Below, piece after piece: positions 15,911 through 37,619 of a DNA stretch of 62,477 bases. The first letter of the stretch is position 1, and each line of letters opens with the position of its first letter. The position numbers and the translations under genes are program-made. Below the pieces are notes generated by a model. The model did not search any database. It saw only the letters and a list, made by a program, of their open reading frames with translations, and was not told the origin of the DNA. Source of the stretch: a virus; the IMG/VR virus record IMGVR_UViG_3300010430_006910, positions 1 through 62,477 of that record, one strand, 5' to 3'.

Positions 15911-16009
15911 TATGACTACTACAATCTTAATTATTTGCGGATTAGTTGCTTACTTTTTTGCCAGTCGGTATTGGAATCCCGGAAGGTCTGATACTAAACT
16001 CGACCGGGA

Positions 16010-20743: not shown

Positions 20744-21142
20744 ATGGAGGACAGATTGGGATTTGGAAGTATTGCGATTTTATCGGCAAGAGTTATTGAC
20801 TCAGCCGATTTTCTAAACTCAGTAACACCGGAACAAATTGCAGAAGTGGATGCAGAAGTAAGTGATCATATTTACCAATGTTCAAACTACTTACCTCCTT
20901 CAAATCCTGCCGATGCACCGGGAATTTTACGAGGAATTTGGGCAGACATCGTTTTATTCAAAATAATCAAGTGGCAAAAGAACCTTTCTGAAGAGGAGAT
21001 TAAACGCCGCACAATTCTGAAAGAGGATGCATATAAGCTGCTTGATAAAATTCAATCCGGACGTATAACTGTTAAAGTTGATTCTAGTACTTCACAGAGT
21101 TTGTTTTCAGTTTCCGGCACGAAAAGAATTTCAACACCATAG
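20744..21142 (+). CDS. Mu gp36-like protein (DUF1320), head-tail region
   Basis: 132 aa. The pattern of an N-terminal helix, a core with SVTPEQIAEVDAEVSDHIYQCSNYL, and a helix with ADIVLFKIIKWQ followed by a C-terminal segment (DAYKLLDKIQSGRITV) matches the gp36 family of Mu-like phages, which sits at the head-tail junction. The ATG at 20744 overlaps a GGAGGA sequence. A TTG at 20756, spaced correctly from that sequence, could be the true start. Confidence 0.7.
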   Translation: MEDRLGFGSIAILSARVIDSADFLNSVTPEQIAEVDAEVSDHIYQCSNYLPPSNPADAPGILRGIWADIVLFKIIKWQKNLSEEEIKRRTILKEDAYKLLDKIQSGRITVKVDSSTSQSLFSVSGTKRISTP

Positions 21143-21149
21143 GAGATTT

Positions 21150-21617
21150 ATGGAACCTTCTGATGTAACAAAGGCGGCTGTCGCCAAGTTGAATTTAATC
21201 AAGTCCGAGTTTGATTACGGAGACAAATCAATAAAAACCATAGCTGAGATAGCAAGAAAACCAGACCCGGACAATGGATTTACACCTCCATATCTTGCGG
21301 TTGCCTATGTTTATGATTCGGAAGGTCAGCCCCTTTCCGGTGGTCATATTCATAAAGTCCCGGTTACTTTAATTGTGCTATGTGGAAGCTCTCCCGGATA
21401 TGCCTCGGAAACAGAGTCCCTGAAAGAATCTGTTTCTTATGCCCGAACGGTTGTAAAAAACCTTGTCGGCGAATTGGAAATTAACCTCGGAACCGAAGAG
21501 GAACCGGAACCCGGGCTCATCTTTTTAAGAGCGTCAAAAAAGCCAATCGAGATACTTGAAGCAGACCCCGATTTGTCACTGGTCGCCGCCTATCTGGAAT
21601 TTGAGGATATAATATGA
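21150..21617 (+). CDS. Mu gp37-like protein (tail terminator candidate)
   Basis: 155 aa from ATG 21150 with GGAG seven bases upstream. Two-layer alpha/beta pattern (TPPYLAVAYVYDSEGQPL, KVPVTLIVLCGSSP, ESVSYARTVVKNLVGELE) as in gp37/DUF1834 proteins, which cap the tail tube. It follows the gp36-like gene, as in Mu and its relatives. Confidence 0.65.
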   Translation: MEPSDVTKAAVAKLNLIKSEFDYGDKSIKTIAEIARKPDPDNGFTPPYLAVAYVYDSEGQPLSGGHIHKVPVTLIVLCGSSPGYASETESLKESVSYARTVVKNLVGELEINLGTEEEPEPGLIFLRASKKPIEILEADPDLSLVAAYLEFEDII

Positions 21618-21740
21618 CCCTGAAATATTCAAAATACGCACACACGGGCGTTTCCCAACGTTTCCCAAAAATAAACGAGTATTATATCGACCGTGGGTAC
21701 AAAACGGCTTAAAATTGATTTTCTTATTAAAGGATATCTA

Positions 21741-22037
21741 ATGATTTTTTTATTAACAATCGTCACATTTTTTACACAGCTAATTTTTATTGGTACTCGC
21801 ACCTGGAACGTTCAATCTGTTTCAGAAGGGAATATCCCGGAAGCTATATTTTCCGGATTTTTTGTAAACCTATCATGGCTCGCCTCAACCGCCATCGGGA
21901 TTGACGGGACTGTCAGGGTAATCAACTTGCAATATGATTACCTGCCAGTCGTTATTGGAAATATTGCGGGGGGACTTGTCGGCACTTATATAGCCATGAT
22001 TATTAAAAAGAGGAGTAACAATGGCAAAACTGGCTAA
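21741..22037 (+). CDS. Small membrane protein upstream of gp27-like gene
   Basis: 98 aa from ATG 21741 with AAAGGA upstream. Hydrophobic segments MIFLLTIVTFFTQLIFI, IFSGFFVNLSWLASTAIGI and VVIGNIAGGLVGTYIAMII. It overlaps the next gene by 17 bp. Mu-like phages carry small membrane proteins of unknown role here. The preceding spacer contains a tandem CGTTTCCCAA CGTTTCCCAA (21649-21668). Confidence 0.6.
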   Translation: MIFLLTIVTFFTQLIFIGTRTWNVQSVSEGNIPEAIFSGFFVNLSWLASTAIGIDGTVRVINLQYDYLPVVIGNIAGGLVGTYIAMIIKKRSNNGKTG

Positions 22038-22551
22038 CAGATTAACAGCATCTAAAAAGAAAAAGATACATTCCCTTTTTTATAAACAGAGCCTTACCAT
22101 CCCTGAAATTGCCGAACTGGAGAATGTAACTTACTGGCAGGTTTATCGCATAATTAACGGACAAACCAAACTGGATGGCTCACCTCGCAGAGATAAAGGA
22201 AAATCGAGATCATCGGTTGATGAATCCGGAAATATTGATTCCGTGGATTCAAAGTGGTCTCTCGGTGATTTTAAGGATTTGGATGACTTCCAATTATTCC
22301 TGTTGATGGATACCCTTCAGGATGTTGCGGTCATGAACATGAGCCCGGGAGAAAAGGTAAAGATTGTCAAGGATATTGAGGTGATCCAGACCAAGATAGC
22401 CGCTAGACAATTGAAGAATAACATCCGCCGTCCGGATGCGGAGGTGATAGCAAGGATTATCCGGAGGTTCAAACCTAAAGTTACCAATCAGGAAATAGTC
22501 CAAATCTATAAAGAGGAGTTGGAAATGTGGCAGAGGAGCAAAGATGGCTGA
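22021..22551 (+). CDS. Mu gp27-like small terminase subunit
   Basis: 176 aa. N-terminal helix-turn-helix (residues about 10-45: SLTIPEIAELENVTYWQVYRI cut by a single residue), a linker, then helices (GEKVKIVKDIEVIQTKIAAR) and a C-terminal acidic helix. It directly overlaps the large terminase gene by 8 bp. A DNA-binding packaging recognition protein is expected at this place in Mu-like phages. Confidence 0.7.
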   Translation: MAKLANRLTASKKKKIHSLFYKQSLTIPEIAELENVTYWQVYRIINGQTKLDGSPRRDKGKSRSSVDESGNIDSVDSKWSLGDFKDLDDFQLFLLMDTLQDVAVMNMSPGEKVKIVKDIEVIQTKIAARQLKNNIRRPDAEVIARIIRRFKPKVTNQEIVQIYKEELEMWQRSKDG

Positions 22552-24184
22552 TTCAGATTTTTTGATGCGGTTTCCCTTGCAGACATTAAGCGAGCTTCAG
22601 TCTCATGCCGATCTAATGGATTCGATCAAAAAGAAAGAAGAGCTAAAGAATGCCCTTCTGAAAGTCAAACCATTCTCCAAGAACGAGTCAACAAAAGAAG
22701 CTGTTGCCAATCGTATTGAGAGGGCTAGGGACTTCTGGTATTTCGACCGAGTCTATTTTCCTAAGACTATGTACGATGCGGATGATTACGCTCCTCCCGG
22801 CAAATTCCACAAAGAGATTGTTGCCCTTTCAGATTTGCATGATCAGAAAGCTCACCTGATTCTCGGCCCCCGTAACCATGCGAAAACTGCCATGCTCAAA
22901 AAGAAAGCAGTCCATACTTTTTTATATGGCACACGCAAATTCATGGCGATCGGTTCTGAAACTCTGGAAACGCCAAAAAGCTACCTGTTGGATATCATCT
23001 ACATGATTGATTACAACGACCGTATCCTTAATGATTTTAACTTGCACTGGCATGAAAAGTCCACCGAAAAACTTTTTGCAACAAGCGATATTAATCCTGG
23101 AGGTACTTTCGTTACAACCCTTTCCGAGGAGAAAAGCTCCAGAGGTAAACAACGGTTAATGAACAGGTTGGATTTTATCCTGTTAACGGATTTTGAAAAT
23201 CTGACCTCTTCATTAACTGCAGAGGCTCTTGAAAAAAGAGTTGACAGGATAAATGAAATGAGGGGTTCTCTTACAAAAGACGGAACACTTGTCTGGGAGG
23301 CTAACAATACTCACGTCGATTATCTATCAAATCAGTTACTGGAGGAACAGGATAACGGATTAATTTCCGAGAACTTTGTTGTGCATCTTTATGCGGCTTG
23401 GGATGAGTCACGACATGCCCGTCAAAAAGCTCTCTGGTACTCACGCTTTCCGGCAAATACAGAAGATGAACTTAAACAAATGCTCAAACCAAAGGATGAT
23501 CTTGATTGGTCTGGGAACTTCCAGCAACGACCACGCCGTAAATCGGGTGACATATTCCCGGATACTTATTATTCAGAATGGGAAGTTTTACCGGATGATG
23601 TTCAATCGGTTATTTGGACAGACCCAAATACATCCGAAAAAGGAAAAGGTGATACAACAGCCATGCCCTGTCTTGGTTTTAGTTCTTCAATGCAAAAATA
23701 CTACGTGACAGATGCACGCTGCAGGAGTTACTTCCATAGTAATGAATTACTCACCGATATTATTGAATTGCAGGACAGGCAATCAAGAATGGGGGTACTT
23801 GTAATAACTCTCGGAATGGACGGAAACGTCAATCAGGAATCTAACTGGAAAAACAATATTTTCAACTTTACACAGATTCATAAAGTACCATACCCGACAG
23901 TTTTATTCAGAAAGTACAAGGTCGATGCCTTGGCCGTGAATCTTGAATCGGTCTGGAAGGAGAATCGAATCCTGTTCCCTCCCGGTTTTGCCAAAACCGA
24001 AGAGGGCAAAAAATTTCTAAAACAGTTTTTTGGATTCAGGTTAAAAGTTGCAGGTAAAAAGGATGATGCTCCGGATGCAATGATATGCGCCTATACATTA
24101 TTGATAGAACTAGGCATCGGGTTTATACTTGATGATACACCGTTAATAATCACCTATTCAAACCGCAAGGTAAGGAGAGTTTAA
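22544..24184 (+). CDS. Large terminase subunit (Mu gp28-like)
   Basis: 546 aa. Walker A-type motif at about 106-116 (LILGPRNHAKT, with Asn-His-Ala before KT), Walker B at about 209-217 (LDFILLTDFE), then a nuclease domain with IWTDPNTSEKGKGDTTAM and a C-terminal KKDDAPDAMICAY carrying acidic residues. It cuts and pumps DNA into proheads; in Mu-like phages packaging starts at an integrated copy and is headful. It lies between gp27-like and portal genes. Confidence 0.9.
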   Translation: MADSDFLMRFPLQTLSELQSHADLMDSIKKKEELKNALLKVKPFSKNESTKEAVANRIERARDFWYFDRVYFPKTMYDADDYAPPGKFHKEIVALSDLHDQKAHLILGPRNHAKTAMLKKKAVHTFLYGTRKFMAIGSETLETPKSYLLDIIYMIDYNDRILNDFNLHWHEKSTEKLFATSDINPGGTFVTTLSEEKSSRGKQRLMNRLDFILLTDFENLTSSLTAEALEKRVDRINEMRGSLTKDGTLVWEANNTHVDYLSNQLLEEQDNGLISENFVVHLYAAWDESRHARQKALWYSRFPANTEDELKQMLKPKDDLDWSGNFQQRPRRKSGDIFPDTYYSEWEVLPDDVQSVIWTDPNTSEKGKGDTTAMPCLGFSSSMQKYYVTDARCRSYFHSNELLTDIIELQDRQSRMGVLVITLGMDGNVNQESNWKNNIFNFTQIHKVPYPTVLFRKYKVDALAVNLESVWKENRILFPPGFAKTEEGKKFLKQFFGFRLKVAGKKDDAPDAMICAYTLLIELGIGFILDDTPLIITYSNRKVRRV

Positions 24185-24185
24185 G

Positions 24186-25409
24186 ATGTTCATAAATTCA
24201 GATTTACAAAAAAGAGTCATGGTTGAGTCAATTGATAAAATTGTAGAGTATTACAAGAAAGCAATTTATATCGATCCGAAAGTACGGGACTTAAGGTATT
24301 TTCTCTCGTTTCTTACAAGGTTGCCACAGATTGATCCGCACTTGTTTTCACTTATATATTTTCGTAAACAGGCCGTCCAGAGTTTCTCTTATACAATCAA
24401 ATTTCCGGATGAGTATATCCCAACCGAATCAGAGAAAAAACAAATAATGGAAATGAAAGAAAGATTTGCAAAATCAAAACTTCACAGCTTGATTGAAACG
24501 AGCATGAACGGCAGGTTGATGGGAATGTCTGCGGTAAAGCTCATGTGGGAACATGATGGGATTTACAAGCATCATATAGCGAATAAAAAGAGTTATCATC
24601 TGACCGAATTAGATTTCGATCTGGAAAGTGATGAGAAACTGATTTTTGTTGAAACCGATACTAAAACCCAGAAATCCAAACGTGAACCCATCGACACAGA
24701 AACCCACTTTGATGTAAGGTTTAACCCGTTATCCGGAATTGAGAATGATTATCCGGGAGGATTTTTAAGAGTTAATTTCCTGAGAGTTATTATAAAATAC
24801 TGGGACTTCTTTGCATGGTCAAAGAATAATGAAAAGAGCATGATATATGCAAAATATGATGAGCAATTCAAGGCAAGACTGAATGAAATAATGGAACAGC
24901 TTTACAACATCGGCGAGAACTCAGTGGGAGCTTTTCCTAAAGGCGTTGATGTTAATGTTTTAGATTCTCTTAAATCTGAAACCCTTAACTCTCACAAGGA
25001 ACTTGAGCAAAGTGTAAACAGGTCGACCAGTTTATCAATTGCAGGGCAGTACACGGCAACTGATCCCGGTGACGGGCATTCTTATGCGGCTTCAAAAGTC
25101 GGGTATAATATAGCTGCAGATGTCACTTTAAGCGATCTTGTATTTGCTGAACAGCAAATCTCTAACCAGTACCTAATGAAAGATTATCAACTTAATTATG
25201 CGAGTGAACCGAGAAACGCATTTCCAAAATTTGAGTTTAATAAACGCAAGTTTACAGATGCTGAAGCGATGGCGAGAATAATAACTGATTACGCCAACGC
25301 CGGAATCCCTGTGGTCAAAGATGATGTTTACGGTCTTGTTGGCTTACGAATTCCTAAAGAGGGTGATGAGACTATCGTAGCAAAATCATCCGGGATGTTC
25401 GGGGCATGA
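24186..25409 (+). CDS. Portal protein (Mu gp29-like, DUF935)
   Basis: 407 aa, directly downstream of the terminase gene. The features DPHLFSLIYFRKQAVQSFSYTIK, LIETSMNGRLMGMSAVKLMW and KYWDFFAWSKNNEKSMIYAKYD match the DUF935 portals of Mu-like phages. The portal dodecamer forms the DNA entry pore of the head. The stop overlaps the start of the gpG-like gene. Confidence 0.85.
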   Translation: MFINSDLQKRVMVESIDKIVEYYKKAIYIDPKVRDLRYFLSFLTRLPQIDPHLFSLIYFRKQAVQSFSYTIKFPDEYIPTESEKKQIMEMKERFAKSKLHSLIETSMNGRLMGMSAVKLMWEHDGIYKHHIANKKSYHLTELDFDLESDEKLIFVETDTKTQKSKREPIDTETHFDVRFNPLSGIENDYPGGFLRVNFLRVIIKYWDFFAWSKNNEKSMIYAKYDEQFKARLNEIMEQLYNIGENSVGAFPKGVDVNVLDSLKSETLNSHKELEQSVNRSTSLSIAGQYTATDPGDGHSYAASKVGYNIAADVTLSDLVFAEQQISNQYLMKDYQLNYASEPRNAFPKFEFNKRKFTDAEAMARIITDYANAGIPVVKDDVYGLVGLRIPKEGDETIVAKSSGMFGA

Positions 25410-26011
25410 TCGACCGGATTGTTGATGACGTTTTTTTAAGCAAGGTCGGGAACAAGACCTTGTTTATTATTCGCCGTAGAACCAAGAGGGGTGAGTTCCT
25501 GCCGGGTTCTTCGAGCGGTGCAGGGGATTATAGTAAAAACCCTTTTGCCATGCCTCTCGGTGCAGCTAATAAAACACTTGGCGGGCGTATAAAGAAAGCT
25601 TCCGGCAACAAGGGTAAATATAGGGATCCTGAAAACTTCCAACTTTTCCAGACCAAAGCAAATGCCTTGTGGGTACTTGTAAAGGGAGGTTATTCAGGAC
25701 TTCGGAAACTTGCCGGAAAACAAAACGATAATGTTACCATGAACTGGTCAGGTAGTTATCTTCGTGATCTGGGGGTTCTGAGAACTGAAAGCGATAACAT
25801 CATCTTGGGTTGGAAAAGCAGGGAAATTCAGCAGTTGGCATATTGGCATGAAGTATCGGGTGCTGGTAAGTCGAGGAGGATTCACAAGATTTTAGGGATA
25901 ACAAAAGCCGAAGGGAAAGAACTCCTTCCGTTAGTGGAAAAAGAGTTCTTGAAACGTGTTGATAATTATTTCAAAGAATACCTCAAGAAGGAATCAATTT
26001 CAGTCAGTTAA
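25406..26011 (+). CDS. Virion morphogenesis protein (Mu gpG-like)
   Basis: 201 aa, basic. The central MNWSGSYLRDLGVLR and C-terminal HEVSGAGKSRRIHKILGI followed by helices (LLPLVEKEFLKRVDNYF) match the phage virion morphogenesis family, which acts late in tail or head-tail completion. It overlaps the portal gene by 4 bp and ends 12 bp into the oppositely oriented gene at 26000-26209. Confidence 0.75.
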   Translation: MIDRIVDDVFLSKVGNKTLFIIRRRTKRGEFLPGSSSGAGDYSKNPFAMPLGAANKTLGGRIKKASGNKGKYRDPENFQLFQTKANALWVLVKGGYSGLRKLAGKQNDNVTMNWSGSYLRDLGVLRTESDNIILGWKSREIQQLAYWHEVSGAGKSRRIHKILGITKAEGKELLPLVEKEFLKRVDNYFKEYLKKESISVS

Positions 26012-26209
26012 TCCGAAATGTTCAATTGCTTTTTTATAACCGATCTCCTTTCTGTTTTCGTCAATACCTCTGGCCGCAAGTTCTTTTTTTGCCAGTAAAA
26101 CCACGTCAATTTCACCTTTTACTATTTGCCCAAGAAGTACGCTTGCAATACCCTGTAAAAGATAAATAGGGTTTAAGTCATCATCAAGTTCGATTGTTTC
26201 GTTGTGCAT
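26000..26209 (-). CDS. Small conserved-looking protein, antisense end of the packaging block
   Basis: 69 aa, helical and acidic (LLQGIASVLLGQIVKGEIDVVLLA). It has AGGAG upstream of its ATG. Its gene is convergent with the gpG-like gene (12-bp overlap) and divergent from the TPR gene. Function unknown. Confidence 0.6.
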   Translation of the reverse strand: MHNETIELDDDLNPIYLLQGIASVLLGQIVKGEIDVVLLAKKELAARGIDENRKEIGYKKAIEHFGLTD

Positions 26210-26378
26210 TTTTTGTCTCCTGTGTTATAAAATTTACATACACAGGGTGCACTATCCTGTCTCGAATAGCAAGTCTTATCTGATTACGATTGCAATTTAG
26301 TTGCCAACTTTTTATTATATTTAAGTCCTAAATTTAGAGTTTAAGTGACACAACAAAATCAAATTAAACGAGGCGAAT
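26210..26378. promoter_or_regulatory. Divergent promoter region of the TPR gene, with internal end repeat
   Basis: The 169-bp spacer holds the Mu-end-like repeat at 26292-26316 and AT-rich DNA (TTATTATATTTAAG) upstream of the TPR gene. An autonomous promoter for the TPR gene is likely, since the neighbouring phage genes point the other way. No -35/-10 pair can be named with certainty. Confidence 0.45.
26292..26316 (+). repeat. Internal copy of the Mu-like end repeat
   Basis: This 25-bp stretch matches R2 (5340-5364) in 22 of 25 positions, with 17 identical bases in a row (TTTAGTTGCCAACTTTT). It lies between the divergent genes at 26000-26209 (-) and 26379-27194 (+), in the same orientation as the right end. 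It could be a third transposase site, a regulatory site, or a relic of an earlier rearrangement. Confidence 0.7.
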
Positions 26379-27194
26379 ATGATCGAATATCCAAAATTGA
26401 AATTTGTTGTTGATGGTAGCATAGGATGGTTTCATTTAGATGATGACACCGAAGAAGGAAGTTCTTTAAAAGGCAAGTTTAAAATTGCAAGTGACTTACC
26501 CGCATATGATTCACAAAAGGAGGAGTTCCTTGAGGAAATTATTATGGAAGATCCAAATTTTGTTGATGCCTATTTTCAAATAGGACTGATTAATTTCAAG
26601 AGATCTAATTTTGGGAAAGCTGAAGAGTATCTTGATAAAGCATATAGAATCTGTATTAGTTTACTCCCGGAAAACTTTCATGGTATGATCCCGTGGGATA
26701 TTGAGAGCAACCACTCATTTCTGTTGTCTCTTTATTATTTAGGTCGGACTGAAATGGCAATCAAAAAATATCGTGAAGCCATGATTTCTTTAAATGCAGT
26801 TCTAATGTATAATCCTTCTGATGAGTTATGCGCGAGGTTAGAGATAATCCATAATTCACTTCTACTCGGAGATTATAATAGGATTATCGCTCTGGGTAAA
26901 ATATACCTACAAGACCAAAGGGTTGAAAGTTATTATGGGCTGGTGTTAGCTTATTTCAGGAAAGGTAATCTTGTAGCTGCAAGAAACGCATTTAATGAAG
27001 CGTATGAATTTAATGCAGAAGTTGCAGAACACATTTCTCTTTTGGATATTGACTATCTTGAGGAGTTCATAGAGAACACCGATGATGATGTTTATAGTGA
27101 TGCTCTCATTTATATCATTGATAACGAATTTTTTTGGGTCGATAAGGCTATTAAAAATTTTGTTATTTCTAATATTGACAGGTTAAAGCAGTAA
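26379..27194 (+). CDS. TPR-repeat protein, probable moron (cargo) gene
   Basis: 271 aa, soluble, acidic. Several TPR-like helical pairs can be seen: DAYFQIGLINFKRSNFGKAE, LYYLGRTEMAIKKYREAM, SYYGLVLAYFRKGNLVAARN. The gene is AT-rich, has its own upstream region, and is flanked by genes of opposite direction, all signs of an independently acquired gene. TPR proteins bind other proteins, so it may act on a host or rival phage target, but no partner is visible. Confidence 0.65.
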   Translation: MIEYPKLKFVVDGSIGWFHLDDDTEEGSSLKGKFKIASDLPAYDSQKEEFLEEIIMEDPNFVDAYFQIGLINFKRSNFGKAEEYLDKAYRICISLLPENFHGMIPWDIESNHSFLLSLYYLGRTEMAIKKYREAMISLNAVLMYNPSDELCARLEIIHNSLLLGDYNRIIALGKIYLQDQRVESYYGLVLAYFRKGNLVAARNAFNEAYEFNAEVAEHISLLDIDYLEEFIENTDDDVYSDALIYIIDNEFFWVDKAIKNFVISNIDRLKQ

Positions 27195-27203
27195 TGCTAA
27201 TTG

Positions 27204-27971
27204 TTATCCTTGATGAGCCGGGTTATAAACCTCTCCCGGTTCTTTACGTTCATATCCGATTAGAGCAGTTAAAAAATGTTGACAGCGGTAACCACCGAGT
27301 GAGGTTGTTACAGGAAGTCCCTGCTTATTATCCATTGAGGCAAGTTCTGCAAGTGTATAAACTCTCCCTATATGTGAACGGCAAAAGGGTCGGGTGTTTT
27401 CTGAAGTGTCACCATCGTAAATGTAATAGACCACTCCTGCTTGTTTGGCAACCTCAACATGATAGGCATTATCAAACTGTGCCAGGGCGGTTCTGGTAAG
27501 GTTCTCAGCTGTGTAAACACCAAGTCCCGTGTTTTGAAGTTTTTTACTTATTGAATTAAAACCGTATTCACCCTTTATCGCACTCCGGACTTCCTTCAGA
27601 ACCTTATTCCTGACCTCCGTTTCAACCGGGGTAAAATCGACCTGGTACAATGCATGCATCTTGTCGATATCGGCTACACTAAAGCTCCCTCCGGTAGCAT
27701 TCCCGAAGTACTCGTTCCAGATACCGGATATCTCCTGTTGTGAAGTATAAACCTTTTTTATTATCTCGTTTTTGAAACCATCAGGAACTTTAAGGTTTCG
27801 CTTCAGGTCTCTGGTTAATTCCTGAAGGTCAATACTTCCATCGGTCGAGTTCCGGAGGTAGATGCGTTCAATTGAACGTATAATCGAATGTTTATACTGG
27901 TTCTTTCCGGAGAGGATGCCGGAAGTGATTCCGGCTTTGATTTTTTCGATTTGTTTACGGGATTTATTCAT
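27204..27971 (-). CDS. Head morphogenesis protein (Mu gpF-like)
   Basis: 255 aa from MNKSRKQIEKIKAG; a longer frame to 28001 overlaps the previous gene. The C-terminal half has the family signature: YYIYDGDTSENTRPFCRSH, IGRVYTLAELASMDN and TTSLGGYRCQHFLTAL. Mu gpF is a minor head protein needed for assembly. Here the gene is on the minus strand and separated from the portal gene (+) by the TPR gene, unlike the usual portal-F order. Confidence 0.85.
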   Translation of the reverse strand: MNKSRKQIEKIKAGITSGILSGKNQYKHSIIRSIERIYLRNSTDGSIDLQELTRDLKRNLKVPDGFKNEIIKKVYTSQQEISGIWNEYFGNATGGSFSVADIDKMHALYQVDFTPVETEVRNKVLKEVRSAIKGEYGFNSISKKLQNTGLGVYTAENLTRTALAQFDNAYHVEVAKQAGVVYYIYDGDTSENTRPFCRSHIGRVYTLAELASMDNKQGLPVTTSLGGYRCQHFLTALIGYERKEPGEVYNPAHQG

Positions 27972-28311
27972 TATTATCGAACAAATCCGGTTGTCCGCCA
28001 TTTAGTTTGAGCTTCAGATTTATGTTCTTATACTTCCGGAACTCTTCAAGCAACCCTTTCTTTTCGAGAAAAGACCAGTAATCATTAAATGTATAAAGAA
28101 GTTTTTCGTCTTTAATTACCTCGGTTTTGTGAAATAGATTTCCGGTACAGACCAACATGTATTCCATGACTTTATTGCAATTTGGGCATAGTTGACCCTT
28201 TATCATGTACGGCATCATGTAGTGATCAAGCGGCCCGAAAACCTTCCTTTTCGAACCCTTGATTTTCTGGTATGTATCGGAGAAATCTTCTCCACAGAAT
28301 CCGCAAACCAT
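27964..28311 (-). CDS. Zinc-ribbon protein, unknown function
   Basis: 115 aa with CGFC near the start and CPNC at about 42-45, a likely four-cysteine zinc site, followed by a helical region. It overlaps the gpF-like gene start by 8 bp. Likely a nucleic-acid-binding or structural accessory. Confidence 0.6.
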   Translation of the reverse strand: MVCGFCGEDFSDTYQKIKGSKRKVFGPLDHYMMPYMIKGQLCPNCNKVMEYMLVCTGNLFHKTEVIKDEKLLYTFNDYWSFLEKKGLLEEFRKYKNINLKLKLNGGQPDLFDNNE

Positions 28312-28312
28312 T

Positions 28313-28558
28313 TTAGATACCTATTTTGCTAAATACTTGAGTGTATGAATAATTCCTGTGTTTGGTTTTAACCTTTTCTGAAGCAGATAAATATGCTTCA
28401 CGCTCATCATCCTTTTCCGTTTCAACCGTGATTTTCTCTTCGATTGGTTTTTTAGCTTCAGGATCATAAATCTTGAATTGGAACTCCCACCTGAAATTCA
28501 TCTTTTTTTCAGGGGTGGTTTGTTCGATTGGTTCGTTTTTTTCTGATTTGTGTGCCAT
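28313..28558 (-). CDS. Hypothetical protein, charged
   Basis: 81 aa. It has an acidic/basic N-terminus, then a beta-like stretch (MNFRWEFQFKIYDPEA) and an alternating charged region. It is packed between neighbours with 1-2 bp gaps, so it is probably expressed as part of the operon. No family recognised. Confidence 0.55.
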   Translation of the reverse strand: MAHKSEKNEPIEQTTPEKKMNFRWEFQFKIYDPEAKKPIEEKITVETEKDDEREAYLSASEKVKTKHRNYSYTQVFSKIGI

Positions 28559-28560
28559 TG

Positions 28561-28809
28561 TTACCTCAAATTTATGATGATTATGTTTTTGTTTTTTTTA
28601 AGTCTTATGCCGTTTTTGGTTATCAGGAACGGTTTCGGCTCACTAGCTTTCTTTCTTTTTTTAACCCGGACTAGCTGATGCATTTGCCGGAGTTTTTCTT
28701 TTGCTATCCTGTCAAACCTTCCGGCTTTATAATGGCTTATTTCGTAAGGAGCGAAGCCGGAAGCTTTAAGTGTTTCAAGTTCTCTTTTTGTCAACTTTTG
28801 TCTTGGCAT
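28561..28809 (-). CDS. Small basic helix-turn-helix-like protein
   Basis: 82 aa from MPRQKLTKRELE. The segment LTKRELETLKASGFAPYEIS may form a short DNA-binding helix pair, followed by a basic stretch (RVKKRKK). It overlaps the end of the upstream gene by 35 bp. Function unknown. Confidence 0.5.
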   Translation of the reverse strand: MPRQKLTKRELETLKASGFAPYEISHYKAGRFDRIAKEKLRQMHQLVRVKKRKKASEPKPFLITKNGIRLKKNKNIIIINLR

Positions 28810-29155
28810 AGGGCGAATGGGAGTCCCTCTCTCCGTTTGCATAATCAATCAGACAATCAGTTATCTCAGAATGCATCCAAATTTCAAATGCGGGATAATG
28901 AATCTCATCCGGTAGTGATTGGCTGACATGATCATGCAATCTGTTTATTATCAGATTTACAAGTTTCTGGTCATCCTCTTCCGATATCAAAACACCCTCC
29001 TCTTTGCCATCAGTTTTACGGAGAGTCAGGTATAACCTCCTGATATCGGAGACGGGCATTGAAAAGGAAACAGGATAGGATAAACTGAAATCCTCTTCCT
29101 CTATCACACCTGGCATTGCCCGTTCAACTACTTCCTTAAACTCTTCAGCTTTCAT
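28775..29155 (-). CDS. Hypothetical early/middle gene product
   Basis: 126 aa, soluble, acidic (VIEEEDFSLSYPVSFSMP; EEDDQKLVNLIINRLHDHV). It lies 2 bp after the DUF3164-like gene stop. No family recognised. Confidence 0.5.
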   Translation of the reverse strand: MKAEEFKEVVERAMPGVIEEEDFSLSYPVSFSMPVSDIRRLYLTLRKTDGKEEGVLISEEDDQKLVNLIINRLHDHVSQSLPDEIHYPAFEIWMHSEITDCLIDYANGERDSHSPYAKTKVDKKRT

Positions 29156-29157
29156 TT

Positions 29158-29760
29158 TTACACTGCAGAGAAATTAAGTTCTACATTCTGGAATTCTCCA
29201 GACTTATCTTTTTTCCAGATGCGGTGGTACATCTTCCGGTATGCCCTCTCAGTTCCTTCCAGTAACAAATCGCATCCTTCAGAATATAAATTGTTATTTA
29301 CACGGCTTCTGTATTTAAGAAGAGTCGTGGCTTTCCGTATATCGAACTGACCAGTACTGGTTTGTATAAAATCAAGAACGAGAGCTTTTGCAAACTCGTT
29401 ACTCGCTTCAATTGAGTTGTCGAGGAACTCTTTGAACTTTTCTTTTGCGGCGTTGATCAGCGCATCATCATACGCAAGTTTCTCAGAGTGAATTCTCTCG
29501 ATTTTAATCGAACGGTCGAGATTGTAGATTGTGAGGTTTCCTTTATTCTTTGAACCATCCACTCCACTTTCCAACATTTTCGCATCATAAATTTCTTTCG
29601 AACGCCTCTCAACCTCCTCTTTGAATTCAGCAAGAAGTTTGTTGATTCGTTCAGCTTTTTTAATCAAGGTTGCCGTGTGCCTTTCGGATAACCGTTCGCT
29701 CTTTTTTAGCTTGTCAGGAGGTATTACAATCCCGGCTTCAGTTACAAATTTTCGTTTCAT
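29158..29760 (-). CDS. DUF3164-like protein of Mu-like phages
   Basis: 200 aa, helical, charged. The pattern of a long N-terminal coiled coil (TATLIKKAERINKLLAEFKE), a central GNLTIYNLDRSIKIER strand and a C-terminal RKATTLLKYRS with AYRKMYHRIWKK fits the DUF3164 family, found near the transposase in many Mu-like phages. The biochemical function is unknown. Confidence 0.7.
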   Translation of the reverse strand: MKRKFVTEAGIVIPPDKLKKSERLSERHTATLIKKAERINKLLAEFKEEVERRSKEIYDAKMLESGVDGSKNKGNLTIYNLDRSIKIERIHSEKLAYDDALINAAKEKFKEFLDNSIEASNEFAKALVLDFIQTSTGQFDIRKATTLLKYRSRVNNNLYSEGCDLLLEGTERAYRKMYHRIWKKDKSGEFQNVELNFSAV

Positions 29761-29780
29761 TTTCTTTCTCCAATTTATTT

Positions 29781-30152
29781 TTAATACCTGTATTCCAGAT
29801 TTCTACTCTGGGTCAAAAGAGCCTGCATCTCTGACCTGGCTTCTTTTTTTGTGTTAAAACTCTTATGTACCGCCCACCCGTGCGAATGCTGACCTTTTGT
29901 GCATCTTTTGATTGTTTTCTCATCAGCCGATAGACTGAAAATTGAAAATCCTGCCGACATTAGTTTGTGGACTTCGAACAGTCTTCCGGATGTCTCGTTT
30001 AGGGAGTTTACAATCTGATCGCCGTATCTCTCGGCATCGCCATATTTTCCTGAAAACCCCAACTCGGTTTTATCATATACCCTGCATACCGTTGTTCTGG
30101 TCTGCTCATCGATGATCTGTTTTGTTGCCGGATTGAAACTGAATCTTGACAT
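29781..30152 (-). CDS. Hypothetical protein, early region
   Basis: 123 aa, basic (KRCTKGQHSHGWAVHKSFNTK cut by its Gly). No membrane segment. It has a GGAGG upstream. Function unknown. Confidence 0.5.
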   Translation of the reverse strand: MSRFSFNPATKQIIDEQTRTTVCRVYDKTELGFSGKYGDAERYGDQIVNSLNETSGRLFEVHKLMSAGFSIFSLSADEKTIKRCTKGQHSHGWAVHKSFNTKKEARSEMQALLTQSRNLEYRY

Positions 30153-30164
30153 TTATTACCTCCG

Positions 30165-30383
30165 TTAATTTTTCCTAAACGTGAAAATCTCTAATAATTC
30201 CCGTGTTTTTTGTATCTTTTCAAGTAACTCCTTTTTTGCAGTAAGGTGTTGACGATACTTTAGAATTACTTCCATCCTGTTAAGATTGGATTTTAATGCC
30301 GTGTGCTCATTATATCCGGGATAATTCAATTGTGCATCAGTAAGCACACCGATAAACCCGACCTCGTAACTACCTGTTTCCAC
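30165..30383 (-). CDS. Small hypothetical protein
   Basis: 72 aa, helical C-terminal half (YRQHLTAKKELLEKIQKT). It overlaps the upstream GemA-like gene end by 14 bp. Function unknown. Confidence 0.5.
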   Translation of the reverse strand: METGSYEVGFIGVLTDAQLNYPGYNEHTALKSNLNRMEVILKYRQHLTAKKELLEKIQKTRELLEIFTFRKN

Positions 30384-30855
30384 TTTTCTCTCTCGATTTT
30401 TTATAGTTTTTTACTTCCCATTTTTCAAGGCGTTCAATCGAGTGATGCGCCTCGGCTATTGTTAAATCATAAAGGAATACTTTCCGGTCGATTGTCTTTT
30501 CGATGTACCGCTTTAAGTCCTTGTCCGTGATTTTTAGCTTGTAAATTCCAACCGCCTTGATTTTTGCCACCTGCGATTCGGTACATCTTAAAACCTGCCT
30601 ATCGGAATCCAACTGCGGGTATCTCTTCTTAATTCCTGCAATCGCCACGTTCTTTGTGATTTTATTAAGTCTTGTTTTTGCCTCTTCCAATTTCGCTCCG
30701 GAGAGGGCTCTCGATGTTTCCACTTTAAAATGTGACCACAAGTACCAACGTTTGAATGCCTCGACGAGATACGAGCTTGTACACAATCCAAGTCTTGTCA
30801 TTCTCCTGATTATCTGCTGATGCAGACTTATCCTTAAAGATACCAGTTGTTTCAC
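30370..30855 (-). CDS. GemA-like regulatory protein (Mu gp16-like), tentative
   Basis: 161 aa, basic and helical. The N-terminal half carries conserved-looking helices (LHQQIIRRMTRLGLCT). The C-terminal KVFLYDLTIAEAHHSIERLEKW resembles the LTxxEA ending of GemA/DUF1018 proteins, which modulate host gene expression in Mu. The position a short distance after the transposase also fits. The match is partial. Confidence 0.45.
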   Translation of the reverse strand: MKQLVSLRISLHQQIIRRMTRLGLCTSSYLVEAFKRWYLWSHFKVETSRALSGAKLEEAKTRLNKITKNVAIAGIKKRYPQLDSDRQVLRCTESQVAKIKAVGIYKLKITDKDLKRYIEKTIDRKVFLYDLTIAEAHHSIERLEKWEVKNYKKSREKSGNR

Positions 30856-30876
30856 TTCTGTTTGTTCCAGGACCCT

Positions 30877-31263
30877 TTAACTCCTTTTTGAAGTACCTAA
30901 AAGTTTCTTAATATCAGTTGTTCCAACCTTACCGCCGAGTGCCCTTATCTGGCTCATGTATGCAGTACGTTCACCGAGAACCATCATTCGGCGTTCCGAT
31001 ATTGCTTTCAATGTTTGCCGTAAATCTTTCTGTCGGCTTTTCAGACTTTTTGTTAACTCAGCAATCTCTTTTTTAATATCAGTCAACTCCTCCTGGCTTT
31101 CAGCTTCCAATTGTGCCAGTTCCGAGATCAAATTGTTTACCGCATTGTATTTTGCAGAAAGAACCTGAATGGGTTGGGGAGTTTTATTTGATTTTCTTTC
31201 CATATCCTCACCTCCTATAATTCCGGTTTCACTTATCGCGATATCTGAATATTCCTGTGCCAT
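30877..31263 (-). CDS. Coiled-coil protein downstream of the transposase
   Basis: 128 aa, or 108 aa from an internal ATG at 31203; both starts have strong ribosome sites (AGGAGGCAGT and AGGAGGTGAGGAT). Nearly all of it is coiled coil (LAQLEAESQEELTDIKKEI) with a basic C-terminus. It occupies the place where a MuB-type ATPase would be expected but has no P-loop. Possibly a transposase partner. Confidence 0.55.
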   Translation of the reverse strand: MAQEYSDIAISETGIIGGEDMERKSNKTPQPIQVLSAKYNAVNNLISELAQLEAESQEELTDIKKEIAELTKSLKSRQKDLRQTLKAISERRMMVLGERTAYMSQIRALGGKVGTTDIKKLLGTSKRS

Positions 31264-31271
31264 ACTGCCTC

Positions 31272-33182
31272 CTAATTTGGGTTTTGTGTAAAATCGATTA
31301 TTGATACATTGAATATTTCATTATCAAAGTCATCTGTCTCAGGTTCGTACCCGAAGCTGATTTCGCCTGATTGTAGTTCCTGCTCCTGTTCCTCTTCCGG
31401 CATCGGTTTCGGACGTTTCTTTTCATACTCGAAGATTTTGATATCTTCGAACTTCTGAATCCTGTCGGCATTCTTGATAATCTGTTTATTAAGTTTTGTT
31501 TGCTGTCGTTTTAGTTTACCGAGTTCATTTGCACGATCTCGGCTGACTGCTCCAAACTTGCGATGATCCTGTGCTTCTGTTAATAATTCGCCGTCAGGAC
31601 TGAAAATCCACCCGTGATAAATGTCGTACTGATTAACTATCACAATAAGTTTTGAACCTTCGTATTCGTATAGTTTCTCAGGTTCTGCCGGAACATAGTT
31701 CAGTTTTTCGAGCGATGGTTTGTATGTGAATGTTATAGCACCTGCAGTGTATTTAGCTTTATACTTTTCGCCGTAGAGGTATGCGAGGCGAAGCGGATCA
31801 ACTTTGTCTGCTTCATATTTTTGATACGCTAATTCAAATGCCTGCCGGATAGTTCTTGGACGAGCCTTATTGGTTTCATGCGCAGGAGATAACATCCGGT
31901 TATGGAACATGATCCTTTCTCTGTCAAGAAAATCATTCTCCATGAATCCGAGCAGGTCGTAACGAAGCTCTTCAAAAGTCCTGTGAACACCGGGGTGTGC
32001 CATACCGAGTTCCGGTTTTCGGCTGTCAAACTGGTTCGGCGAATAACTTGGTGAGTAAGCACAAAACTCATCCTTGATTATTCTGAAAGTACGTTCAATC
32101 GGTTTACCTTCAGGGTGATTGGGTGTAGTTCTGATGATTTTATCATTAGAGTATTCAATAGTTTTTAACTCATCAAGATCGAGGAATTCAATCGGGTGAA
32201 GTGACGGTGAGGTTAATTCACCATCATACAGACCGAGGATAAATCTCAAAAATTCTGTATTGTTCCAGGTCTTTTGATTCTCAAAAATCCATTGTTTCGG
32301 GCGACCCCAGTCACGAATTAACTGCATCGCCGCTTTAACAGTATCTGCTGTCGTAATTGAACCGGTAGTAATTTGCATCGACAAGGGATAACGGGTTTTC
32401 ATATCAATGAACATTACGATATATGCCATCGCTTCAATTTTCTCATAACCTTCGGACTTCCAGTGTACCCAGACACCTTTCTCATCAACCTTCCACTCGT
32501 CGGCAACAACGCAGTCCAGGAAGTTTTCATATTCACTCCACAGGTCTCTGATGATGTGCGGTGTTTTTCTGCTTAAAAACTTGTGCATGTAATGCTTTTG
32601 AAGATGTGCTCCGGAGAGTTCCCTTGCCCATTTGTATGCTTTTCGCTGTGGAATTTCAATCCCGGTATTTTTGAAAACCTTTTCAATGGTTAGTTTTACA
32701 TTACGCTGGACGTTTGCCAAAAGCAGGACTGTAAAATGCTGTTTTGCCTCTTTCAATTCTGCTTTTGTCAATTTCCGGCTTTTACCCTTGTCTGACCGGG
32801 ACTGGTCAGGTGACTTGTACATTCCTGTAAGGTATCGAACCAATGTGTCATAATGAACTTTACATTGGTTCGCTATCTTGCGTTTGTTCGGTTTGCCATT
32901 GGGTTTATAAAAATCCCTGTTTGTAAGGCATCTGGTTATTTCAACAATTTTTTGAGGAGGCAGTTTTGACGGGTTTATATATTCCGGTTTCTGCTCCTGC
33001 TCGACCTTTTCTCTTAATATTACTCTCTTGCGTGGTGACAGTTCTACTACACGAAACCCGTTAGGAAGGGATTCTCTTTGAATCATTTTTTTTACACCCT
33101 CGTAGGAAATGGCGAGGTAGCTCGCAAACTCCTGAATCGTGAATTCGTTTTGACTGTCCTGTATTTGGGTAATATTATTCAT
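31272..33182 (-). CDS. MuA-like DDE transposase
   Basis: 636 aa. An N-terminal winged/helical DNA-binding region (EFTIQEFASYLAISYEGVKK) is followed by end-binding helices and a catalytic core. Candidate triad: D228 (CVVADEWKVD), E301 (IFENQKTW, where most relatives have DN) and E363 (EGKPIERTF). After the core come a beta barrel-like part (about 480-540) and an acidic tail. It cuts and joins prophage ends during integration and replicative transposition. It is located in the early region, as in Mu, without a MuB gene after it. Confidence 0.85.
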   Translation of the reverse strand: MNNITQIQDSQNEFTIQEFASYLAISYEGVKKMIQRESLPNGFRVVELSPRKRVILREKVEQEQKPEYINPSKLPPQKIVEITRCLTNRDFYKPNGKPNKRKIANQCKVHYDTLVRYLTGMYKSPDQSRSDKGKSRKLTKAELKEAKQHFTVLLLANVQRNVKLTIEKVFKNTGIEIPQRKAYKWARELSGAHLQKHYMHKFLSRKTPHIIRDLWSEYENFLDCVVADEWKVDEKGVWVHWKSEGYEKIEAMAYIVMFIDMKTRYPLSMQITTGSITTADTVKAAMQLIRDWGRPKQWIFENQKTWNNTEFLRFILGLYDGELTSPSLHPIEFLDLDELKTIEYSNDKIIRTTPNHPEGKPIERTFRIIKDEFCAYSPSYSPNQFDSRKPELGMAHPGVHRTFEELRYDLLGFMENDFLDRERIMFHNRMLSPAHETNKARPRTIRQAFELAYQKYEADKVDPLRLAYLYGEKYKAKYTAGAITFTYKPSLEKLNYVPAEPEKLYEYEGSKLIVIVNQYDIYHGWIFSPDGELLTEAQDHRKFGAVSRDRANELGKLKRQQTKLNKQIIKNADRIQKFEDIKIFEYEKKRPKPMPEEEQEQELQSGEISFGYEPETDDFDNEIFNVSIIDFTQNPN

Positions 33183-33184
33183 AT

Positions 33185-33853
33185 TCAGTTTAATAGTTTT
33201 CGATTTTGTTCTGAGTTCAAACCTTGCCGTATGTTGGTGTTAAATCCCGAGGCAAAACCACGGGACATCGCTGTTTTCGCTTCATTTTTCGGCACGACTG
33301 ATTCATTTTTAAGATTATTGAACCTTTCATTTTTGTAGTCTTCAATCTCGGAATTGCGGTTGCTGAGTATTAACCCTTCCTTTTCGCCGAGCAGGTGATT
33401 TGCCTGATTTAACTTGTAACATATACCCACGTACATGCCGTACATGAATGATTGACGGCTCCTGAGTCTGCCTCGTTTGGTCTTCCACTCGTGGCGGAAG
33501 TGAGTGATAAGGAAGTCGAAGACATATTGGGCAATGTCGATATCGGTTCTCGTACCGATAAATACGATTGCCTGTTTACGAAATCCGCTCGAAATTGATT
33601 TGACGTTAAAAAATTGTTGAACTATCACTGCCGAGTATTTGACTTCCGATTGTAGTCTTGATTTTGGGTCTCCGGATTGCCTGTGAGTTATAGGCTCACG
33701 TTGATCACCCTCATCAACAGAGTTCAAATCGATGTTGTGTTTATCAGCGAGCTTTTTTGCGAGGTACAACGCATTTTCAATTTCGCCCTGAGTCCCTCCG
33801 TTTTTCATTCGGAGAAGCTTTTTGATTTTTTCGATTACTTCATTATTCTGCAT
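33185..33853 (-). CDS. DUF2786-type protein, early region
   Basis: 222 aa. The N-terminal MQNNEVIEKIKKLLRM with a following helix (NALYLAKKLADKHNIDL) is the DUF2786 signature; a second domain (residues about 75-150: FFNVKSISSGFRKQAIVFIG, DIAQYVFDFLITHFR) is typical of its C-terminal partner. Frequent in Mu-like and other temperate phages, role unknown. It lies 3 bp before the transposase gene. Confidence 0.7.
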   Translation of the reverse strand: MQNNEVIEKIKKLLRMKNGGTQGEIENALYLAKKLADKHNIDLNSVDEGDQREPITHRQSGDPKSRLQSEVKYSAVIVQQFFNVKSISSGFRKQAIVFIGTRTDIDIAQYVFDFLITHFRHEWKTKRGRLRSRQSFMYGMYVGICYKLNQANHLLGEKEGLILSNRNSEIEDYKNERFNNLKNESVVPKNEAKTAMSRGFASGFNTNIRQGLNSEQNRKLLN

Positions 33854-33860
33854 ATCCGCC

Positions 33861-34334
33861 TCAGCTCACGAGTTCTTCAGTTCTGTCAATTATTCGTTTA
33901 ACAATCCCGTAAACCTGTTCCGGCGTGCGCCCGATCTCGTCATCGTACTTGAATTCAGAAACAAAACTGGAGTAAGTGGGAACTTTATTGTTTTCCCTCA
34001 TCCACTCCTTGTACTCGTTGGCAATTTCAAGGCATTGATTCACGAGTTTTTCTTTTAACGCTTTTTTCGTGTTTACCCTCCGGTACTCGTTAATCATTTC
34101 AACCTCGGGCCCCGTGAGTATTGCCGTGAATGATGGAATTTCAGGATTGAACTCGTGAGCAATCTCTTCCATTTCTGCCATTTCCCTCGTGAAAATCAAA
34201 TCTTTCAGTTCGTTGTAACTATCATCACATGCCTCGTTATGAGCAAAAAGAAGCTCCGGAGTGTTTGTTATCGGGATATCCCCGAGGAGTTTTGCGAAGC
34301 CTTTAACCTGTTCAATTATTTCTTGTTCTATCAT
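33861..34334 (-). CDS. Hypothetical early protein
   Basis: 157 aa, acidic and helical, no cysteine cluster. It has a short spacer to the DUF2786 gene. No family recognised. Confidence 0.5.
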   Translation of the reverse strand: MIEQEIIEQVKGFAKLLGDIPITNTPELLFAHNEACDDSYNELKDLIFTREMAEMEEIAHEFNPEIPSFTAILTGPEVEMINEYRRVNTKKALKEKLVNQCLEIANEYKEWMRENNKVPTYSSFVSEFKYDDEIGRTPEQVYGIVKRIIDRTEELVS

Positions 34335-34335
34335 T

Positions 34336-34617
34336 TTAATTCTCCTGTAATGATGTTTTTTTAGCGGCAGATTTTAACATCGGGGTGATGGTTCTCTGGA
34401 TACATACACCAACTTTACGGCGTGAACTATCAGCAGTTTTCTCGTCGATGATGCCTCTTAACAGCAATCTGGTGATTGCCTTGTCATCTTCATCATGCCT
34501 GTTGATTTGTTCGGAGTTTAATCCGCTATCTTTTAATTGATCTGATATCGGTGGTTGAGTTGCCCCGAAGTGTAATACCCTCTGACCTTTAAGGGTCGTG
34601 ACCTTGTAACTAATCAT
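34336..34617 (-). CDS. Hypothetical early protein
   Basis: 93 aa from the ATG at 34617, which overlaps the preceding stop (ATGA). Basic C-terminus (ITPMLKSAAKKTSLQEN). Unknown function. Confidence 0.55.
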   Translation of the reverse strand: MISYKVTTLKGQRVLHFGATQPPISDQLKDSGLNSEQINRHDEDDKAITRLLLRGIIDEKTADSSRRKVGVCIQRTITPMLKSAAKKTSLQEN

Positions 34618-35036
34618 ACTATCTCCATGTGTTGTTTGGGAACGAGTTTTATGCTTTCGCAATTTTTTTTTAGGTGATTTGCTAGCCGTTTCGGGCTGTT
34701 CCAGATGTGAGTCATGTAACTGTATTTCTGTTGGGGATCGACACCGACTTCTTTTAGGATACCCTTTCGGACTTTCGATAATCTTTTCCGCTCATTCGGT
34801 TTATGAATAAACCTGCTGATTACCGGATAAAACTTTGAGTATTCAGCTTTCAATTCGGGATTTTTATTAACATCTAACAGGGACTTTGCGCCATGCAGTT
34901 GAACGAAAATGCCGTATTTTAGAGTACCTGTTTTAATGGTAACAAAATCAACGGTGTGTCCATCCGCCTCGATGGTGACCAAACCATAAGGATAGCTCAA
35001 TGTTTTTTCAAATTTTTTCCATTCCTGTGCTGTCAT
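34614..35036 (-). CDS. Hypothetical early protein
   Basis: 140 aa. An N-terminal mixed alpha/beta part (YGLVTIEADGHTVDFVTIK cut by its Gly) and a basic helical part (NERKRLSKVRKGILKEVGV). Coupled to the next gene by ATGA. No family recognised; nucleic-acid binding is possible from its charge. Confidence 0.5.
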   Translation of the reverse strand: MTAQEWKKFEKTLSYPYGLVTIEADGHTVDFVTIKTGTLKYGIFVQLHGAKSLLDVNKNPELKAEYSKFYPVISRFIHKPNERKRLSKVRKGILKEVGVDPQQKYSYMTHIWNSPKRLANHLKKNCESIKLVPKQHMEIV

Positions 35037-35039
35037 TTT

Positions 35040-35732
35040 CTACTTTTGCTCCTCGTTATTTTTGCTCTTAGTACCTAATGTCGTCACATCATCAAGTGAC
35101 TGAGTGAATTTGAATATCATTCCCCATCTCCAAAAATGGACAATCGCGATAAAACAGAAGATGGAGGTTTGGGACAGGTGAAACAGCATTTCCGGCTCAG
35201 TCCAATCCATCTGCGCCTTTGATTGTATTTGCAATATTTTGGAAATGATCGTTGCGATAGCGATGGCATTAAAGATTACCTGAAATATTACTGAATTGTA
35301 GATATACCAGAACCAGTCCTCTTTATTGTCTGGCACATAAAAGAACTTTTTGATAATTTTTGACATAAGTTTCTCTCTGCTGTATTTAAATAGGTAGGTT
35401 ATATGCTTAAGATTTTCGCATTTATCGGTCTCGTGAGTGCAATTCAGGCAATCCTCAAAAGCATTGTAATCATGCGTAAACGCCGAAATCGGTATTTCTA
35501 TAAAAGTTACATTAAGAGTTTGGTTCGTCTGGATAATTGGTTGTGGATTAACTATTTCATTCTCTTTATTGCCGCTGTTCTGGAAACTTTCAGGATTCCA
35601 CCACTTGCCTATCTTCCTCCAGAATGTGAATTCGGGCCCCTTACAATTATTTTTGCAATACTTTTCAGCGTTCACCTTCTTCTGTTCGAGGCACTCAGGA
35701 AAAAGAGGATTATGTTCGATGATCCCGATCAT
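35040..35732 (-). CDS. Cysteine-rich membrane protein, early region
   Basis: 230 aa. Cysteines cluster in the N-terminal half (YCKNNCKG; CLNCTHETDKCENL) and two membrane segments occupy the C-terminal half (SVIFQVIFNAIAIATIISKIL; LFHLSQTSIFCFIAIVHFW). It overlaps the stop of the upstream gene (ATGA). A membrane protein in the early operon could act in superinfection exclusion, but this is a guess. Confidence 0.5.
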   Translation of the reverse strand: MIGIIEHNPLFPECLEQKKVNAEKYCKNNCKGPEFTFWRKIGKWWNPESFQNSGNKENEIVNPQPIIQTNQTLNVTFIEIPISAFTHDYNAFEDCLNCTHETDKCENLKHITYLFKYSREKLMSKIIKKFFYVPDNKEDWFWYIYNSVIFQVIFNAIAIATIISKILQIQSKAQMDWTEPEMLFHLSQTSIFCFIAIVHFWRWGMIFKFTQSLDDVTTLGTKSKNNEEQK

Positions 35733-36211
35733 AAATCTAGCTCCAATTGATTTGTGGCTCTCTTGTCGATTGTCTTTTTTACCCTCAAGGTATCTTGCAC
35801 CATGTGGGTAAACTTCTTTTCAAACCTTTGATACGTTTCAGGGCTTAAATCCCCAATTACATCCAGTAACGCCCGAACGGCATCCGTGGCTGATTTCTGG
35901 TAATCTGCCGCCATCTGGTTATCATCTCCCTTGCACATCGCTACTTTTTTAGGAAGTGGAACAATTGCAAATCCGCACTCCCATGCCATCAGTTGCAGGC
36001 AGTCAAAATTCTGTTTGAATTTCATGGCAGGGATTAATAGCTCGGAAGGAAACGGCAGATCTTCATTCAGCGAGCTTATCCGGCAAAGGTAAGAATGTGT
36101 TTTACATACATGGTCAGCAAGTTCATAAACTGTTTTATTCTTGCCGGAATTGCGTCCTTTGCCGTGGACAAGCTCGTTTTGTTTGATTTTAAAGGTTGAC
36201 TGGAAACTCAT
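35729..36211 (-). CDS. CII-like regulatory protein, early region
   Basis: 160 aa. N-terminal helix-turn-helix-like part, central conserved-looking FDCLQLMAWECGFAIVPLP, and a C-terminal ATDAVRALLDVIGDLSPETY followed by a coiled coil. The pattern is that of phage regulatory CII-type proteins. First gene of the long early operon, just after a 9-bp inverted repeat. Confidence 0.5.
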   Translation of the reverse strand: MSFQSTFKIKQNELVHGKGRNSGKNKTVYELADHVCKTHSYLCRISSLNEDLPFPSELLIPAMKFKQNFDCLQLMAWECGFAIVPLPKKVAMCKGDDNQMAADYQKSATDAVRALLDVIGDLSPETYQRFEKKFTHMVQDTLRVKKTIDKRATNQLELDL

Positions 36212-36253
36212 TACAATTTCTCCCGAAAATTATAATGGTTTTTTGCCCTGCGG

Positions 36254-36290
36254 ATTGTTATATTCAGTATATGTAATTGCGTATAACAAT
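36254..36290. promoter_or_regulatory. Inverted repeat upstream of the early operon
   Basis: ATTGTTATA (36254-36262) and TATAACAAT (36282-36290) form a perfect 9-bp inverted repeat with a 19-nt spacer, between the Ner-like gene and the first early gene. Likely an operator for the repressor at 36611 or the Ner-like protein. The TATAAC half resembles an attC core by chance. Confidence 0.5.
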
Positions 36291-36294
36291 ACAT

Positions 36295-36507
36295 CTAGGC
36301 TGCCCTTTCGGTAAGTCTAACAATGTGTGAATATAGCTTCAGGATTGATTTAAGTATCCGGCGCAGTGCATTTTCGTTCTTACGTTTGTTATCAGGGTCT
36401 AATAGCATTGAAACATAGGCTTGCGTGTAGCCAGAGTCCCTTGCTATTTCCGAAGTGTTAAGAAGACGACGATCAATTTCGTACTCAAATATTTTAATGA
36501 TTTTCAT
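36295..36507 (-). CDS. Small helix-turn-helix protein (Ner/Cro-like)
   Basis: 70 aa from MKIIKIFEYEIDRR; a longer frame to 36564 includes untypical sequence. Helix-turn-helix LNTSEIARDSGYTQAYVSML. It is divergent from the repressor gene at 36611, the position of Ner in Mu, where it shuts down early transcription. Confidence 0.65.
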   Translation of the reverse strand: MKIIKIFEYEIDRRLLNTSEIARDSGYTQAYVSMLLDPDNKRKNENALRRILKSILKLYSHIVRLTERAA

Positions 36508-36610
36508 CGATTGTCTTTTTTTTATTAAATAATTGGTTATAAATCTATAACTCAATATATACAATTGTAGCTAATATGTCAAACAATTTTATATATAATT
36601 ATATATAATT
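36508..36610. promoter_or_regulatory. Divergent switch region between Ner-like gene and repressor
   Basis: 103 bp, very AT-rich. It contains TATATAATTA repeated in tandem just before the repressor ATG (36588-36608) and several TATA/ATTGTA stretches. Promoters and operators of the lysis-lysogeny switch are expected here. Confidence 0.5.
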
Positions 36611-36937: not shown

Positions 36938-36957
36938 CGGTCAATAAGACCGCAACC

Positions 36958-37615: not shown

Positions 37616-37619
37616 ATAC
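37616..37619. repeat. Target-site duplication ATAC, left-end copy
   Basis: Partner of the copy at 5303-5306. On the minus strand the duplicated bases read GTAT and include the AT of the start codon of the holin-like gene at 5047-5304. Confidence 0.65.

Follow-up and report, generated by a model that had tools for sequence, protein, structure and literature searches.

A lone transposase-end-type site in the cargo control region of a nested Mu-like element

Why should a Mu-like element carry, far from either terminus, a copy of the core of its own right-end sites? The question arises in a virus record (IMGVR_UViG_3300010430_006910), of which the whole stretch of 62,477 nucleotides was analysed and is here termed the window. 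The element occupies positions 5307-37615 in minus orientation and lies inside another prophage with a separate set of portal, capsid, GpA-type terminase and integrase genes. ATAC is present on both flanks, giving a target duplication of 4 bp, and joining the flanks without the element restores the ribosome binding site (RBS) and ATG start of an 85-aa ORF. The insertion point in the outer prophage falls between the RBS and the start codon of this ORF. The end sites and principal genes are as follows, with spacings compared to two relatives, M1 (G001:C370) and M2 (G040:C4).

5303 to 5306, no strand: target duplication ATAC, right side, from flank comparison
5307 to 5338, plus strand: right-end site R1, starting with the terminal TG and adjoining ATAC
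5331 to 5362, plus strand: right-end site R2, 24 bp inside R1, the same spacing as at the right end of M2
20744 to 26011: inverted block with the terminase and Mu-type portal
27204 to 28001: Mu F-like gene (Phage_Mu_F, E 0.004, and minor-head PHROGs)
31272 to 33182, minus strand: Mu-type transposase (phrog_310, E 5e-21), presumed ligand of the end sites
36611 to 36937: repressor-like gene
37529 to 37560, minus strand: left-end site L2, 55 bp inside L1, the same spacing as in M1 and M2
37584 to 37615, minus strand: left-end site L1, with the terminal TG
37616 to 37619, no strand: target duplication ATAC, left side, from flank comparison

The left end at 37615 is thus where the original prediction had placed it. 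As in Mu, with its L1-L3 and R1-R3 sites, transposase sites are found at both termini and the ends are of the TG...CA type. In addition to the transposase, the element encodes a Mu-type portal (Portal_Mu, E 1.9e-32), minor head protein and terminase (phrog_38, E 1.6e-41), as judged by profile matches. Unlike Mu, its target duplication is 4 bp rather than 5 bp; M2 likewise has 4 bp, whereas the duplications of known transposable phages are 5 or 6 bp (PMC8705779). The target preference appears RTAY-like (ATAC in the window, ATAT in M2). In size (about 32 kb) and in possessing repressor, transposase and Mu F-like genes, the element resembles the Mu-like fF4-like transposable prophages of Bacteroidetes, as described (PMC7761591); it differs from them in a weak match to GemA and in the inversion of its head genes. 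An ORF at 27194-27499, which probably runs antisense to the Mu F-like gene, was left out of the gene count.

M2 is a complete relative of 27.6 kb with TG termini, the 24-bp and 55-bp spacings and the duplication ATAT, and M1, from a Melioribacteraceae MAG, possesses the 55-bp L pair. Their transposases show about 36-37% (M2) and 53% (M1) identity to that of the window. In the DDE motif the expected second catalytic Asp is Glu in the window and G001 (FENQ, LENS) and Asp in M2 (IDNG). The structure model of the transposase is poor (mean pLDDT 49), and a PDB profile search gave no match. The core of the end sites has diverged, being CTGCAAAAAA in M1 and M2 and TGCCAAC in R1, R2 and L2 of the window. 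The sequence TTAGTTGCC is specific to the R sites of the window, the L sites carrying TTAMCTGC at this position.

The extra site is located in a control region between two divergent genes, the features of which are listed below.

26000 to 26209, minus strand: 69-aa gene (p69), starting 74 bp from the extra site, with homologues in two genomes of the order
26210 to 26378, no strand: divergent intergenic region of 169 bp, holding the extra site mid-way, a dyad and a promoter-like pair
26283 to 26314, plus strand (R orientation): extra transposase-end-type site ATTACGATTGCAATTTAGTTGCCAACTTTTTA, core 26290-26308
26290 to 26318: promoter-like pair TTGCAA-17-TATTAT, pointing to the TPR gene and overlapping the extra site
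26379 to 27194, plus strand: TPR-repeat cargo gene, starting 65 bp downstream of the extra site

The original prediction of a repeat at 26292-26316, in right-end orientation just before the TPR gene, proved correct in location, orientation (plus strand, as R1 and R2) and position relative to this gene, although the full match extends slightly wider than had been thought. The 17 bases said to be shared with R2 are an exact 17-mer (TTTAGTTGCCAACTTTT; 26296-26312 and 5344-5360). When scored with a matrix built from R1, R2 and L2 only, the extra site itself being left out, it matches all 17 of the columns that are invariant among these three sites and reaches 28.5 bits. It also carries the R-specific core TTAGTTGCC, including the R-specific GT. 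That so long a match is too much for chance was likewise borne out, as about 1e-6 such sites are expected in the window (i.i.d. background) and none of 400 dinucleotide shuffles of the element attained this score (maximum 20.4; E = 0.0).

Whether the site could act as an element end can be judged from its outer bases and its surroundings. The first two bases (26283-26284) are AT, in place of the TG found in R1, in L1 and at the M2 termini; a TG does occur two bases outward, but its use as a terminus would require an insertion. No partner site is found at the R spacing of 24 bp or the L spacing of 55 bp (scores of 0.1 at +24, -11.2 at -24, -12.4 at +55 and -15.1 at -55, compared to 17-36 for real sites), although at +24 the score ranks among the highest 1.5% in the window and may be a slight trace of an R2 site that has decayed.

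We tentatively favour the interpretation that this is a lone transposase-binding-type site serving as an operator or architectural site for the cargo, a proposal drawn from sequence comparison. The putative ligand would be the Mu-type transposase of the element, or a regulator of the same specificity. In the lytic phase, when transposase would be abundant, it could occupy the site and thereby block or tune the TPR promoter; alternatively, the site may act as an accessory site that ties the cargo region to the end complex. It would escape cutting because the TG and the partner are missing. The retention of the core, when the parts concerned with cleavage and pairing are not retained, is what would be expected of a lone binding site. 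The distances of 74 and 65 bp to two divergent starts and the overlap with a promoter-like pair, of which the -35 element and spacer fall inside the site, would suit an operator. Against this, promoter-like matches are frequent in this region (9 found, 5.2 expected). A dyad, CCTGTGT-N14-ACACAGG (26219-26246), is located directly upstream of the 69-aa gene.

Further support comes from another contig of the genome that encodes M1 (G001:C508), which shows 46-60% identity in the portal, terminase and 201-aa gene and is probably a second contig of M1, forming one element with C370. This contig contains a lone core, CGAATTATCTGCAAAAAA (5099-5130), with 18 nucleotides identical to R1 of M2, in a divergent intergenic region of 138 bp that separates the portal/terminase operon from the capsid operon; it has neither TG nor partner. 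The 14-nucleotide pattern WTWAWCTGCAAAAA has only four matches in this 5.8-Mb genome, namely L2, the C508 site and two that are apparently coding, and reversed-pattern controls gave none in the same genome; the rarity of the pattern, together with the position of this core, argues for an operator. In each of two lineages, then, one core lies in a divergent control region, the loci being different. This favours a binding-site role over independent relics, with the qualification that n=2 and that C508 is assigned to the same element as C370 by inference. The C508 core is in the opposite orientation to the extra site and at another locus, which counts against the operator interpretation.

Two weaker sites in the same orientation, which did not form part of the original prediction, are also present in the window.

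7568 to 7599, plus strand: weaker end-like site inside a virion-protein gene (E 0.015)
15928 to 15959, plus strand: weaker end-like site 18 bp upstream of the start of the tape-measure gene (E 0.02)

Two sites at this level did not occur together in any of 400 shuffles, and the pattern TTGCRNWTTAGTTGC, defined after the sites were seen, has five matches in the window, all on the plus strand and all within the element. The existence of weaker sites, one of them just upstream of the tape gene, is consistent with an operator role, whereas the location of the sites at 7568 and at 19658 of M2 within coding sequence fits this role poorly. The best internal match in M2 is inside its Mu F-like gene (E 0.16 when scored on its own matrix and 0.005 on the joint matrix). 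It is conceivable, if doubtful, that single uncleavable end cores are scattered by the lineage over divergent control regions, which would let the transposase regulate cargo and head genes and couple their expression to transposition. The regulatory site suggested in the original prediction is supported by its position (mid-way in a divergent region, overlapping a promoter-like pair, with a similar lone core in a relative), the function itself being putative.

Precedents for such an arrangement are partial. In Tn7 (TnsB), in IS911/IS1-type autorepression and at the P-element promoter, transcription can be repressed when transposase occupies end-type sequence within a promoter region; in those systems the end itself overlaps the transposase promoter, whereas the extra site in the window is detached from the ends and adjacent to cargo. 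The internal site of Mu is an enhancer near the left end that is bound by another MuA domain and is unlike the end sites. The internal site of the window, in contrast, is a copy of the end core within the control region of the cargo, 11.3 kb from L and past the early genes, which is not the placement of a Mu-type enhancer (IAS), found near L between the repressor and the early genes. MuA is established to bind an internal site besides the transposase sites at the ends of Mu (PMC5977238). Binding of the extra site would mean that a Mu-like phage uses its transposase to regulate genes distant from the ends, linking transposition to cargo expression. We know of no Mu-like phage in which transposase control of cargo expression has been observed.

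It is quite possible, though we would not call it probable, that the site is instead a relic of a right end. An R-end copy with R1 and R2 collapsed to one unit would then have arrived with the TPR cargo, either by nested insertion or by recombination between nearly identical elements, and would have shed its terminus and partner. In this case the presence of R-specific TTAGTTGCC in the extra site, R1 and R2, rather than the TTAMCTGC of the L sites, is accounted for, as is the resemblance of the extra site to the left part of R1 (TACG-TTGCAA) and the right part of R2 (TTTAGTTGCCAACTTTT-ATT), a hybrid with which it shares 32 of 42 positions, as would result from collapse of the 24-bp repeat. The faint partner score at +24 points the same way, and the low G+C content of the TPR cargo gene (0.34, compared to 0.40 for the element) suits recent acquisition. 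However, there is no target duplication, TG terminus or broken gene adjoining the site, both neighbouring genes appear intact, no copy of the TPR gene beside a right end was found, and the core is perfect while the rest of the end is gone. In composite and Tn21-type transposons a lone end-type repeat within a larger element is usually found where an insertion has left broken genes at its boundary, and nothing of the kind is visible at the extra site. A very old relic, predating the acquisition of the head genes, was rejected, since the site has the derived R core of the window and not the CTGCAAAAAA of M1 and M2; the ancestral right end envisaged in the original prediction is therefore possible only as a recent copy or relic. 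If it is one, the site records shuffling of right ends and cargo among such phages. Whether bound or relict, it lends itself to a simple and clean test of binding in a group of uncultured phages.

The two cargo genes fill a slot (26000-27194) between two convergent blocks, one with the Mu F-like gene and the other with the 201-aa gene downstream of the portal. Other genes occupy the slot in M2 (2.6 kb) and in a further contig, G040:C11 (3.2 kb), and G449 and G322 have a short one; its contents differ in every relative examined. The M2 slot contains no site comparable to the extra site. Absence from close relatives with the same gene order had been proposed as refuting the original prediction. 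The site is indeed absent at this position in the M2 lineage, but since the whole cargo slot differs there, this does not decide the matter.

A protein other than the transposase, such as a phage or host regulator or a nucleoid protein, might recognise TTGC-N7-TTGC, a sequence that the ends could also carry. The core does consist of a pair of TTGC half-sites with an 11-bp spacing, an arrangement common among operators, and lies in a control region with another dyad. We consider this improbable, as the core is arranged in tandem at both termini with a spacing that is conserved in relatives despite divergence of the core itself, which points to the transposase.

It is very improbable that the site is a usable alternative right end which, with L at 37615, moves 26283-37615 (11.3 kb). 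The orientation is correct, the core is perfect and the segment contains the transposase and early genes, but AT replaces the terminal TG, and the second site present at every mapped end is absent at 24 bp. In M2 and in a near-identical copy from IMG/VR, the element extends to the R1/R2 pair, and G764, the only other copy of the window DNA (identical, and probably from the same sample), has no junction at 26283. The 11-kb mini-element of the original prediction is consequently unlikely on sequence grounds, because the terminal TG and the partner site are missing and, in the M2 lineage, all 27.6 kb up to its own R1/R2 pair form the mobile unit. The IMG/VR copy (G763; L022/L023) consists of the M2 element and a further 31 bp at either end, where the flanking tetranucleotides differ (ATAT, GTAT), a mismatch that would be expected for mixed insertion sites or packaged DNA.

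Finally, a chance match is scarcely credible even in AT-rich sequence for which the whole window was scanned, given the expectation of about 1e-6 and the observation that the 19-nucleotide pattern never occurs exactly, and only five times with one mismatch, in 160 related genomes. Exact-pattern matches (L025-L027) and one-mismatch matches (L028-L032) recorded in the searches were single, with no 24-bp partner, and were treated as chance.

Only one element with ends of the window type is known: none was found in IMG/VR by portal, terminase or exact motif, nor in phage records by DNA or by transposase, and scans with the M1 and M2 transposases yielded no further relatives. A second, distant Mu-like element is represented in G040:C11 (L049/L066), where repeats of TGCAATTMTTGTGCAA, 31 bp apart, are located near its probable right end (about 41050-41100 of the joined piece); their left partner was not found and the ends could not be paired. 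Within the window, repeated GGGGACA/TGTCCCC motifs (37280-37350) lie between the repressor gene and the left end and are possible operators.
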